Shown piece after piece: positions 42,409 through 48,007 of a stretch of DNA of 64,000 nucleotides. This DNA comes from Runella sp. SP2 (GTDB lineage: Bacteria; Bacteroidota; Bacteroidia; Cytophagales; Spirosomataceae). A model generated the notes under the pieces. It saw only the letters and a program-made list of their open reading frames with translations, was not told where the DNA came from and did not search any database. Each line of letters begins with the position of its first letter. Within the stretch, counting starts at the first letter, position 1. A program made the translations under genes and the position numbers. The DNA lies in the NCBI RefSeq assembly GCF_003711225.1, contig NZ_CP031030.1, forward strand, positions 6,499,501-6,563,500, given 5' to 3'.

Positions 42409-43145
42409 CCCTTACCTGCGTGGTGGTAGAAGATGAGCCTTTGGCCCGAAACCTCCTAGAACAATACATCCTAAAATTGCCTCATTTGAAGCTTGTAAAA
42501 TCATTTTCAAATCCGCTGGCGGCGTTTGATTTTTTGCGGACAAATACGGTGGATGTCTTGTTTTCGGATATTCAAATGCCTGAAATTACTGGGATTTCGT
42601 TGCTGAAAATTTTGCCCAAAAAACCACTTGTCATTCTGACAACGGCTTATTCGGAATACGCGCTTGAAGGCTACGAACTGGATGTGGTCGATTATCTTTT
42701 GAAGCCAATTACGCTAGAGCGTTTTTTGAAGGCGGTCGAAAAAGTGACGCAGCGGCTAGGTGCTTCGGTTTCACAAATGCCCGCGACGCTGCCCGATATT
42801 GTGCCAGCGGCTGTTGAAACACCTATTTTACCCTCAATTTTTGTCAAAGACGGGACAAAGCTGGTGAAGATTCGCCTGTGCGATGTGCTGTACATCGAGG
42901 GGCTCAAAGATTATGTCGCGATTTATACCAAAGAAAAGAAAATCGTGACGCTCCAAACCCTCAAGTCGCTCGAGGTACAGCTCAGTGCGCATCAGTTTAT
43001 TCGGGTGCATCACTCGTACATTGTCTCTTTTGACGCCATCGAAGCGATTGACAAAGAGAAAATCCAGATTGGTAAAAACTGGATTCCCATCAGTGATACG
43101 TACCGCAAAAGCTTCAAAGAATTTCTGGACAAACACCAATCTTAG
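42405..43145 (+). CDS. LytTR-type response regulator
   Basis: This 246-residue protein has a receiver domain with Asp55 in LFSDIQMPE and a Lys in LLKPITL, and a C-terminal LytTR DNA-binding domain ([30 protein letters not shown]...[18 protein letters not shown]). It forms a pair with the upstream kinase. Its stop codon overlaps the stop of hisF on the other strand by 4 bp. Confidence 0.92.
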
Positions 43146-43972
43146 CGCGACATCCGCATCGGTACGCCACGCTCGTGGAGGTACTGCTTCAGGGCAGGAA
43201 TTTCGATTTCTTTGAAGTGAAAAATGCTGGCTGCGAGTCCTGCATCGGCATATCCTTCCGTAAACACATCGTAAAAATGTTCCATCGAACCCGCCCCTCC
43301 CGAAGCAATGACGGGGATGTTGGCGTTTTTGGAAATAGCCGCTGTTAGCTCCAAAGAAAAGCCATTTTTGGTGCCATCGGCATCCATCGACGTAAGCAAA
43401 ATTTCGCCCGCACCGCGCTCTTCCACCTCTTTGGCCCAGTCGAGGGTGTGGAGTTCGGTAGGTTTGCGGCCGCCGTGGGTGTGGACGAGGTGAACCTCAT
43501 CCCCTTGCCCCTTCTCCTTCCAAGAGAAGGGGGAATCTGACTCCTTCTCCTGAAAGGAGAGGGTTGGGGTGAGGTTTCTTGTATCAATCGCCACCACAAT
43601 GCACTGACTCCCAAATTCTAACGCCAATTCGTTGATTAAGTCGGGGTTGCGTACGGCCGAGGAGTTGATAGATACCTTGTCGGCGCCTGCGTTGAGAAGA
43701 GCCGATACGTCGGCTTTGGACGAAATCCCTCCGCCTACTGTAAACGGAATATTGATGGTATGTGCCACACGGCGTACCAATTCAAGAAGCGTTCCGCGGC
43801 CTTCGACCGTGGCCGTAATGTCAAGAAATACCAATTCGTCGGCGCCTTGTTCGGCATAAACGGCGGCCAATTCAACGGCGTCACCTGCGTCGCGAAGATT
43901 AACAAAATTGACTCCCTTTACAGTACGTCCATCTTTGACGTCGAGGCAGGGAATGATGCGTTTGGTAAGCAT
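43142..43972 (-). CDS. hisF: Imidazole glycerol phosphate synthase subunit HisF, with an in-frame repeat insertion
   Basis: This 276-residue synthase subunit makes IGP and AICAR from PRFAR and ammonia. The catalytic Asp11 (CLDVKDG) and Asp130 (VVAIDTRN) are present, as are the phosphate-binding TVGGGISS and VIASGGAGS motifs. Usual length is about 251-253. The excess is a block from about residue 133 to 160 in the loop after beta-strand 5 (Asp130), where other HisF proteins have a short hairpin before the THGGRKPT motif. That block is translated from a palindromic repeat. The rest is normal, so activity may be kept. No other his gene is adjacent; the PHP histidinol-phosphatase is at 47-48 kb. 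Confidence 0.93.
43493..43577. repeat. Palindromic element inserted in hisF
   Basis: Two imperfect arms of 27 or so bases face each other: AACCTCATCCCCTTGCCCC on the plus strand, and on the minus strand AACCTCACCCCAACCCTCTC, each followed by an inner CTTCTCC/GGAGAAG hairpin. The element carries 28 codons in the hisF frame without a stop. Confidence 0.85.
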
Positions 43973-46941: not shown

Positions 46942-47088
46942 ATGAAAACGAACATTTCAAAAGAAACTACAGTGCGAAAAAGTAATGAGCAAGTAGTAGA
47001 AGAAAAGCTGAAGGCGGCGAATACGTTTTTAAAAAAAGCGGATTTGAGTATTGTTCGTAAAGCAATGCTCAAAGAAAAAATGCCGTAA
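46942..47088 (+). CDS. Possible small protein upstream of the PHP phosphatase
   Basis: This is a possible protein of 48 residues, MKTNISKETTVRKSNEQVVEEKL and so on; the frame continues upstream to 46894. It is lysine-rich and amphipathic, with no family recognised. It ends 4 bp before the likely GTG start of the next gene. Coding status is uncertain. Confidence 0.4.
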   Translation: MKTNISKETTVRKSNEQVVEEKLKAANTFLKKADLSIVRKAMLKEKMP

Positions 47089-47092
47089 AATC

Positions 47093-48007
47093 GTGAAGCT
47101 TAAAACTACTGAAGTGATAATCACCAATTACCACAGCCACAGCCATTATTGTGATGGCAAAGGCTCTTTAGAACAACAAGTACAAGGCGCGATAGCTCAA
47201 GGGCTTCGCGCCTTTGGATTTTCGTCGCATTGCCCCGTTCCGTTTGAAAACCAATGGAGCATGAAAGCCGCTCGCCTCGACGATTATTTGCGCGAAACTG
47301 CCGCACTTAAAGAAAAATACAAGGGCCAAATCGAACTGTACATTGGCTTAGAAGTAGATTTTTTGCCCGAAACCCCACCCCCTGCCCCTCCCCAGTTAGG
47401 GAGGGGTGAAATAACAGCACCTTTTTCCTCAGCAGGGATAGGGCCTAAAGACTTTCCGATGCTTGATTATTGCGTTGGTTCGGTGCATTATGTGGAGTTA
47501 AACCAATTTGGGCAACCTTGGGAAATCGACGGTAGTTCGGTAGAGTTTTTGGCTTGTTTGGATACCCTTTATGACGGGAATATTCAGGTTGCTTTAGAAA
47601 AATACTACGGTATCATTCGGCAAATGGTCGAAACCGATGCACCGCCCATTGTGGGGCACTTAGACAAAATCAAAATGCACAACGAAGCACGTCCGCTGTT
47701 CGACGAATCGGAAGAATGGTACGTGGCTTTGATGGAAGAAACGCTTCAAACAATTAAAAAAGCGGGCTGTATTGTCGAAATCAACACCCGAGGCAATTAC
47801 AAACGTGGGCTGGAGTTGTACCCTTCTCCGTGGATTATTGCGCGTATGAATGCGCTCAACATTCCCATTTGTATCAACTCCGACAGCCATCGACCCGAAG
47901 AAATTACGGCTTCGTTTCCGTTGGCTTTTGAGGCAGCACGGGCGGCGGGTTATACCCATCAACGGGTTTTGTTAGAAGGAAAATGGCAAGATGTGGAGTT
48001 GAATTAA
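47093..48007 (+). CDS. PHP-type histidinol-phosphatase-like protein, with an in-frame repeat insertion
   Basis: This protein has 304 residues from the GTG at 47093 (47114 is an alternative; no ATG is available before the PHP motif). The PHP metal site is seen in NYHSHSHYCDG, SSHCPVPF, GLEVDF, GSVHYVEL, VGHLDKIKM, VEINTRGNYKRG and SDSHRPEEI, the arrangement of PHP histidinol-phosphatases. Between VDFLPE and GIGPKD the sequence is enlarged by about 21 codons rich in Pro and Gly, which come from a repeat element (47372-47434). The enzyme would make histidinol, next to last in histidine synthesis. A general phosphoesterase role is possible. Confidence 0.72.
   Translation: MKLKTTEVIITNYHSHSHYCDGKGSLEQQVQGAIAQGLRAFGFSSHCPVPFENQWSMKAARLDDYLRETAALKEKYKGQIELYIGLEVDFLPETPPPAPPQLGRGEITAPFSSAGIGPKDFPMLDYCVGSVHYVELNQFGQPWEIDGSSVEFLACLDTLYDGNIQVALEKYYGIIRQMVETDAPPIVGHLDKIKMHNEARPLFDESEEWYVALMEETLQTIKKAGCIVEINTRGNYKRGLELYPSPWIIARMNALNIPICINSDSHRPEEITASFPLAFEAARAAGYTHQRVLLEGKWQDVELN
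47372..47434. repeat. C/G-rich repeat inserted in the PHP phosphatase gene
   Basis: About 63 nt, starting CCCCACCCCCTGCCCC and containing CTCCCC-AGTTAG-GGGAG as an inner hairpin. It is an exact multiple of three and carries no stop in the coding frame. It resembles the CCCCACCCCC and AACCCTCTCC elements that are dispersed between genes in many bacterial genomes. Confidence 0.7.

Follow-up and report, generated by a model that had tools for sequence, protein, structure and literature searches.

The window analysed, a stretch of 64,000 nucleotides from the genome of Runella sp. SP2 (contig NZ_CP031030.1, positions 6,499,501 to 6,563,500; genome G000 in the comparisons), carries hisF on the minus strand at 43142..43972. 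The open reading frame encodes 276 amino acids without a stop and matches TIGR00735 with 365 bits (cut-off 294.55), and the catalytic residues D11 and D130 are invariant in a 34-row alignment. In relatives with an 18-residue Ile129-to-GGR segment, HisF is 251-253 amino acids long. Apart from an insert of 84 bp the gene is intact, and the 28 codons of the insert are read through with the frame kept. The insert is a complete, imperfect palindromic element (43493..43576, minus strand; family A) that corresponds exactly to HisF codons 133-160, with T131 and R132 separating it from Asp130. A first-pass annotation of the window had described a palindromic repeat translated without a stop or a frame change at 43493-43577, in a HisF that was otherwise intact; these data and the dispersed full-length relatives described below confirm that description and the start of the element, whose end was found at 43576 and not at 43577.

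As single-stranded DNA, the 84-bp palindrome folds at -24.9 kcal/mol (z -4.40), and none of 200 shuffled sequences folded as well. Scanning with a class-II triplex rule (three blocks of at least 8, loops of 1-6 and at most one mismatch, after the accessible part of PMC4666352) revealed that the element is made of two inverted class-II intrastrand-triplex motifs, one per strand: a 9-bp motif on the plus strand (43543..43575; CCTTCTCCT-GAA-AGGAGAGGG-TTG-GGGTGAGGT) and an inverted 11-bp motif on the minus strand (43494..43532; CCCCTTCTCTT-GGA-AGGAGAAGGGG-CAA-GGGGATGAGGT), both with one mismatch or less. With stems of at least 8 and up to one mismatch, the rest of the window held no further triplex site on the plus strand and a single one on the minus strand, at 47371-47406.

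This last site lies in frame within a hisJ-like histidinol-phosphatase gene (47051..48007, plus strand; hisJ_fam 146.2 bits, cut-off 90.2) and represents a half-element with one triplex motif (47371..47406, minus strand), as judged from its sequence, the triplex scan and the relatives. A second gene of the histidine pathway in the same window therefore carries an in-frame palindrome. The extra stretch around the half-element occurs in both G000 and G001, and G004, G008, G010, G011 and G012 lack it; the site of G007 holds a different palindrome (4 of 300 shuffles as good) and the stretch of G003 is no longer significantly palindromic in the shuffle test; the comparison excludes the G005 site, and G002 gave no hisJ match. 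The hisJ site thus tells the same story as hisF, that of one site with differing repeats between species.

Within the window, a YC variant of the terminal 11-mer AACCTCACCCC was found five times with up to one mismatch, compared to 1.81 expected, but 4 of 100 shuffles also reached five, so the window is by itself insufficient to prove a repeat; the proof comes from full-length relatives at other genomic places. A genome search for further copies, as suggested in the first-pass annotation, located such relatives: BLAST with the hisF element identified five other places, and the exact 11-mer occurred 17 times versus four times for a reversed control pattern, two of the 17 sites (L118 and L129) not being palindromes by profile. 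Combining the 11-mer, the profile and ORF reading, 15 whole or partial copies were counted, which is a lower bound given by one BLAST search, the exact 11-mer and the profile applied to fetched loci. A profile of the genomic palindromes built without hisF copies matched the hisF element end to end. The proposed repeat origin of the HisF loop is supported by these dispersed copies and by the fold statistics, which together with the presence of the element in a second genome (G008) rule out chance or an assembly error as the source of the insert.

Four of the 15 copies lie in frame inside conserved ORFs, one in hisF, one in an IcmF-like methylmalonyl-CoA-mutase ORF and two in mnmE, the remaining copies being intergenic or at ORF ends. 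Among nine copies whose lengths were checked, those of hisF (84) and icmF (93) are divisible by three and the other seven are not, including both mnmE copies, although the mnmE insertion as a whole keeps the frame. Each copy has one to three of its six frames open against a shuffle mean of 1.87, so the openness of the copies is unexceptional. Several additional features were observed around these sites. The IcmF-like ORF (L128, minus strand) has a second repeat-like linker stretch (ESRGEGQGAKGKRQWAKGEGQGASGKKTDQTHHSSLISHHS) that by eye resembles a HisF loop family of other species (family C). At about 1400-1600 of loci L122, L125, L127 and L130, the palindromes are found within larger inverted structures with ends like GAGGCTGTCTCAAAAG, which are perhaps MITE-like. 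A palindrome at 1501-1588 of L119 makes up the N-terminus of a frame of 423 aa whose start codon is uncertain, before a signal-peptide-like hydrophobic stretch, and a partial palindrome at 1467-1511 of L132 lies a few bases upstream of the likely start of an ORF that by eye is HisH-like.

The HisF loop was then compared among relatives, using 95 distinct HisF sequences from 102 of 110 loci (the other 8 gave no HisF by pattern). In the 83 sequences from outside Runella, the Ile129-to-GGR segment has 18 residues in 51; it does not exceed 27 residues in 74 and is longer than that in nine. Of these nine, five correspond to a 47-residue Siphonobacter-type segment (L026, L066, L067, L069 and L074) that is conserved between species and gives no repeat signal, and is thus a route to a longer HisF loop that does not involve a repeat. 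The 12 Runella segments range from 26 to 44 residues. Family A occupies the loop in G000 and G008, family B in G001 and G004, and family C in G003, G010 and G012; the loops of G005, G007 and G011 have other sequences, and those of G006 and G009 have 26 residues and no repeat. In another genus, the HisF of G018 carries a palindrome of a further family (E). When 300 shuffles were made of each loop, those of G005, G007 and G018 were palindromic (2, 5 and 2 shuffles as good, respectively), whereas those of G006, G010, G011 and G012 were not; for family C, 57 and 104 of the 300 shuffles scored as well, with the G003 copy outside this test.

A search of nine genomes with five of the HisF loops returned at least 219 matches, self-matches included. 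Among the matches listed, four of the five loops were wholly or partly dispersed (family B, the 3' part of family C, the G005 loop and family E), and the G007 loop matched only itself, apart from the tails of neighbouring matches. The unrelated families found at the same site across Runella thus indicate that a single HisF loop has been filled by different repeats. The alignment of relatives had been proposed in the first-pass annotation as a check, with a single conserved loop as the refuting outcome; the 18-residue segments in 51 of 83 sequences from outside Runella and the differing Runella repeats rule out such a loop.

In the mnmE ORF of G000 (634 aa), a DUF559 domain is encoded in frame between two palindromes, and the Pfam MnmE_helical match (132-631) runs end to end across it. 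Searches of 13 Runella genomes gave 20 DUF559 matches in 11 genomes, 15 of them strong, and no match in G008 or G012. Eight of the 15 strong matches lie inside conserved ORFs: four in mnmE (L146, L141, L142 and L150, from G000, G005, G007 and G009) and two in uvrA (L134 and L135, from G001 and G004), all with palindromes at the junctions, and two between fused CoA-transferase subunits (L138 and L145, from G000 and G007). In Bacteroidota, 222 of 395 genomes had a DUF559 match, and among the best 150 matches listed, a sample biased to strong ones, 50 were in open frames of at least 300 aa. A Pfam scan of nine long DUF559 ORFs identified as hosts MnmE, UvrA, CoA-transferase, LeuRS (L225), MetH (L234), HsdR (L230), a type ISP enzyme and a DNA methylase, and in L226 no domain besides DUF559. 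Further hosts in other Bacteroidota were recognised by eye as LeuRS (L228 and L249), MetH (L242 and L250) and HsdR (L233 and L238). In the LeuRS, MetH and HsdR cases repeat-like peptides flank the domain, which is in frame, the insertion status having been checked within Runella.

The flanks of the DUF559 genes were assayed with a profile made from seven palindrome copies located outside hisF and away from DUF559, counting matches of at least 13 bits within 600 bases. Ten of the 15 Runella DUF559 loci had such a match in their flanks, eight of them on both sides, compared to none of 30 Y1-transposase loci and none of 19 control loci (DUF559 versus Y1, Fisher p 9e-7). The DUF559 loci are partly orthologous, with at most five independent two-sided sites (mnmE, uvrA, L136, L137 and L139). 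The controls of this test, taken from Runella sites without an insert, and those of the following one were hand-picked, which makes them a soft control, the Y1 loci being cleaner. In a sequence-free test for repeats shared between the left and right flanks, 26 of 38 DUF559 loci were positive (9 of 14 from Runella, 17 of 24 from the phylum), as were 15 of 25 Y1 loci, with other repeats, and none of 26 controls; left-right pairs from different loci scored as high in 9-18% of cases. This test covered 14 of the 15 Runella DUF559 loci (L136 being left out) and skipped loci shorter than 3100 bases (6 of 30 phylum DUF559 loci and 5 of 30 Y1 loci).

The HisF loop families were also compared with the DUF559 loci. 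Like family A, two other palindrome families of the HisF loop accompany DUF559: family B, from hisF of G001 and G004, surrounds the domain in uvrA of these two genomes, and family E, from hisF of G018, flanks it in L145, L232, L240 and L250, whereas family C and the G007 loop gave no DUF559 link in this comparison. None of the 30 Y1 loci matched any HisF-loop family, and G000 has a single weak Y1 match (E 2.9e-5). A Y1 transposase is thus unsupported as the mobiliser, as none of its 30 loci carries the palindrome profile or a HisF-loop family. In G009, an open frame of 503 aa contains a Y1 transposase domain (L253), and its flank is self-complementary over a very long distance (score 264).

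The same sites were found in different states between species. Among 12 genomes, the mnmE site is full in four (G000, G005, G007 and G009), holds a solo palindrome in two (G006 and G012; 0 of 300 shuffles as good) and a termini-only remnant in three (G001, G004 and G008), and is free of any insert in three where the region is locally divergent (G003, G010 and G011). The translated solo copy of G006 is nearly identical to the downstream copy of its sister G009, a pair with support of 100 in a four-gene tree, which was used for this pair only, since 9 of its 13 genomes are represented without icmF, some nodes are weak and the branch of G003 is oddly long. At the uvrA site, two of 13 genomes are full, ten have no insert and one, G005, has a short, weakly palindromic insert (7 of 300 shuffles as good) that resembles family E by eye but without BLAST support. 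At the CoA-transferase site two genomes are full and three have a short insert of different sequence that is not clearly palindromic (G001, G004 and G008, with 257, 75 and 21 of 300 shuffles as good), the remaining genomes having a 45-47% paralogue or none among the matches listed. The icmF site of 13 genomes holds an A/B-type repeat in four (G000, G001, G004 and G007), another palindrome in G008 (2 of 300 shuffles as good) and none in eight. In three pairs, the pN of DUF559 in mnmE was 0.108-0.202, compared to 0.104-0.155 for the host, with synonymous sites near saturation; this DUF559 is therefore old and constrained.

In-frame palindromes are best known from Rickettsia. The palindromic elements of this genus (RPE) are, in the accessible parts of PMC10969869 and PMC3733652, short multicopy palindromes in frame in unrelated genes with intact products, and in G000 in-frame palindromes were likewise found in hisF, icmF, mnmE and hisJ, none of which is broken. 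In contrast, the Runella element belongs to another phylum, probably differs in sequence, is associated with a DUF559 nuclease domain and is 84 bp long, compared to about 150 bp reported for RPE in those texts. By its mode of insertion the hisF element can be likened to RPE, and it probably works in the same way, but it is not filed as one. With the G/C-rich intrastrand triplex motifs of E. coli it shares the two inverted class-II motifs seen in some pairs; the K-12 motifs, however, are always intergenic with no mobility gene nearby, according to the available portion of PMC4666352, whereas Runella copies occur in coding sequence and beside DUF559. With E values as high as 10 allowed, blastn of the hisF element against 20,395 E. 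coli records gave no match.

The REP sequences associated with RAYT or TIRYT transposases are also dispersed palindromes, some of them within genes, and the end of the Runella element (GGGGTGAG) fits the GGGGWSAS consensus of TIR-associated tyrosine transposases, as far as the accessible text of PMC3733652 goes. Unlike them, the 84-bp hisF element lacks a GTAG or CGTC tag, and none of the 30 Y1 loci is accompanied by its palindrome. Finally, EDxHD (Vsr-like) homing endonucleases and inteins resemble the DUF559 insertions in that a conserved protein carries a nuclease domain within its reading frame, and one DUF559 gene has been assigned to the EDxHD family in the part of PMC9403480 available. 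Nevertheless, no Pfam intein domain was matched at E 1e-8 in the nine chimeric DUF559 ORFs, the palindromic junctions of Runella remain in the reading frame, unlike those of inteins, and the hisF insert has only 28 codons. Among the open-access papers searched, none was found that connects DUF559 with palindromes or with insertion in frame.

The above results lead us to propose, with a probability of about 60%, that the hisF insert represents a dispersed palindromic element in its solo form, and that DUF559 is the candidate mobiliser of its palindrome-DUF559-palindrome form. The latter would be autonomous: its Vsr-like nuclease, DUF559, would cleave DNA at the palindromes or close to them, with repair copying the element; once the stretch between the two flanking copies is deleted, a solo palindrome would remain, and later a termini-only remnant, and the loops in hisF, icmF, hisJ, mnmE and uvrA would have been repeatedly filled or overwritten by repeats. 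Movement by the DUF559 nuclease is inferred from its association with the palindromes, as is the order from full to solo to remnant. More tentatively, and with slightly less than even odds in our view, DUF559 may serve as the nuclease in a class of mobile elements that has yet to be described, in which palindrome-DUF559-palindrome units insert into linkers or loops of conserved enzymes with the frame maintained and no splicing involved (MnmE, UvrA and CoA-transferase, and elsewhere in the phylum LeuRS, MetH and HsdR) and decay to solo palindromes, as in HisF, and then to termini-only remnants; the spread of at least a part of the widespread G/C-rich triplex palindromes, for which a mobiliser is missing, may likewise be due to this nuclease.

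Several observations count against the DUF559 reading: G008 and G012 hold hisF or mnmE copies without a DUF559 match; no link to DUF559 was seen for family C or the G007 loop, and non-palindromic repeats are also found at the hisF site; the short CoA-transferase inserts are not clearly palindromic; and E. coli, for which triplex motifs are reported, had no DUF559 match as one of 14 control genomes. In addition, as the DUF559 of mnmE is old and constrained, it may be retained for another reason. The palindromes could instead spread by template switching, gene conversion or an unknown transposase acting in trans, with DUF559 genes hitch-hiking by landing at palindromes or recombining between them. 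Copies in genomes without a DUF559 match and the filling of the hisF loop by non-palindromic repeats agree with such passive carriage, as do the fit of the element end to the transposase consensus and the fact that Runella Y1 loci have flank repeats of their own; a Y1 enzyme as the hidden transposase is opposed, however, by the lack of palindromes and HisF-loop families at all Y1 loci assayed and by the single weak Y1 match of G000. We regard this other route of spread, with DUF559 hitch-hiking, as unlikely, though as an alternative to be taken seriously.

An AlphaFold2 model of HisF built from 34 sequences (mean pLDDT 82.6, pTM 0.83) had its ten best PDB matches all among HisF structures (TM 0.91-0.95 by target length), with residues 137-157 below a pLDDT of 50 between strands 125-134 and 160-164. 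As the insert is predicted to be disordered and the modelled barrel is intact, it appears as a tolerated loop at the beta5-alpha5 hairpin, in line with the tolerance suggested in the first-pass annotation, and its retention is attributable to an open frame and to the hairpin tip being a surface loop. The same prediction of disorder leaves unsupported the other effect suggested there, an altered interface or ammonia-channel closure. In HisH-HisF structures, the beta5-alpha5 loop sits on the catalytic face of HisF and HisH docks on the opposite face.

Between G000 and G008, the hisF insert had pN 0.100 and pS 0.305, compared to 0.023 and 0.402 for the rest of the gene, so constraint on the insert is looser than on the rest, yet not absent. 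Between G001 and G004, one synonymous change was found in about 24 sites of the insert versus 69 in about 180 of the rest (Fisher p 4e-4), and the insert was 97% identical, with 82-92% identity in its 300-base flanks, although other parts of the locus reached 95-100%. The icmF copies of G000 and G001 were 99% identical versus 86-95% nearby, whereas a family C pair in hisF showed no identity peak (94-100% just upstream, 88-89% within). The identity and synonymous data suit a recent exchange of some inserts but are not proof of it. The pN/pS ratio below 1 and the persistence of the palindrome between G000 and G008 could also reflect co-option of the insert, either as a protein loop that tunes HisF or as a DNA or RNA hairpin acting as a pause or regulatory structure; nevertheless, pN in the remainder of HisF is only a quarter of that in the insert, unrelated sequences occupy the site in sister species and the loop is predicted to be disordered, making co-option very improbable. 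That the insert is an ordinary variable loop of skewed composition that merely looks like a repeat, as the length variation outside Runella and the genus-wide conservation of the 47-residue Siphonobacter version might suggest, is hardly credible, being refuted by the dispersed copies with their end-to-end match, the shuffled folds and the same element in G008.

The repeated filling of the hisF site by different repeats and the DUF559 link go beyond the first-pass annotation. Runella, a genus of Bacteroidota with genomes of 4-8 Mb, carries in-frame palindromes in several core enzymes, and since the states of these sites differ between sister species, their gain, exchange and loss can be traced. 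The inserts also constitute a natural collection of tolerated loop insertions. Finally, the DUF559 link offers a testable answer both to the role of a common domain of unknown function and to the question of what spreads G/C-rich triplex palindromes.
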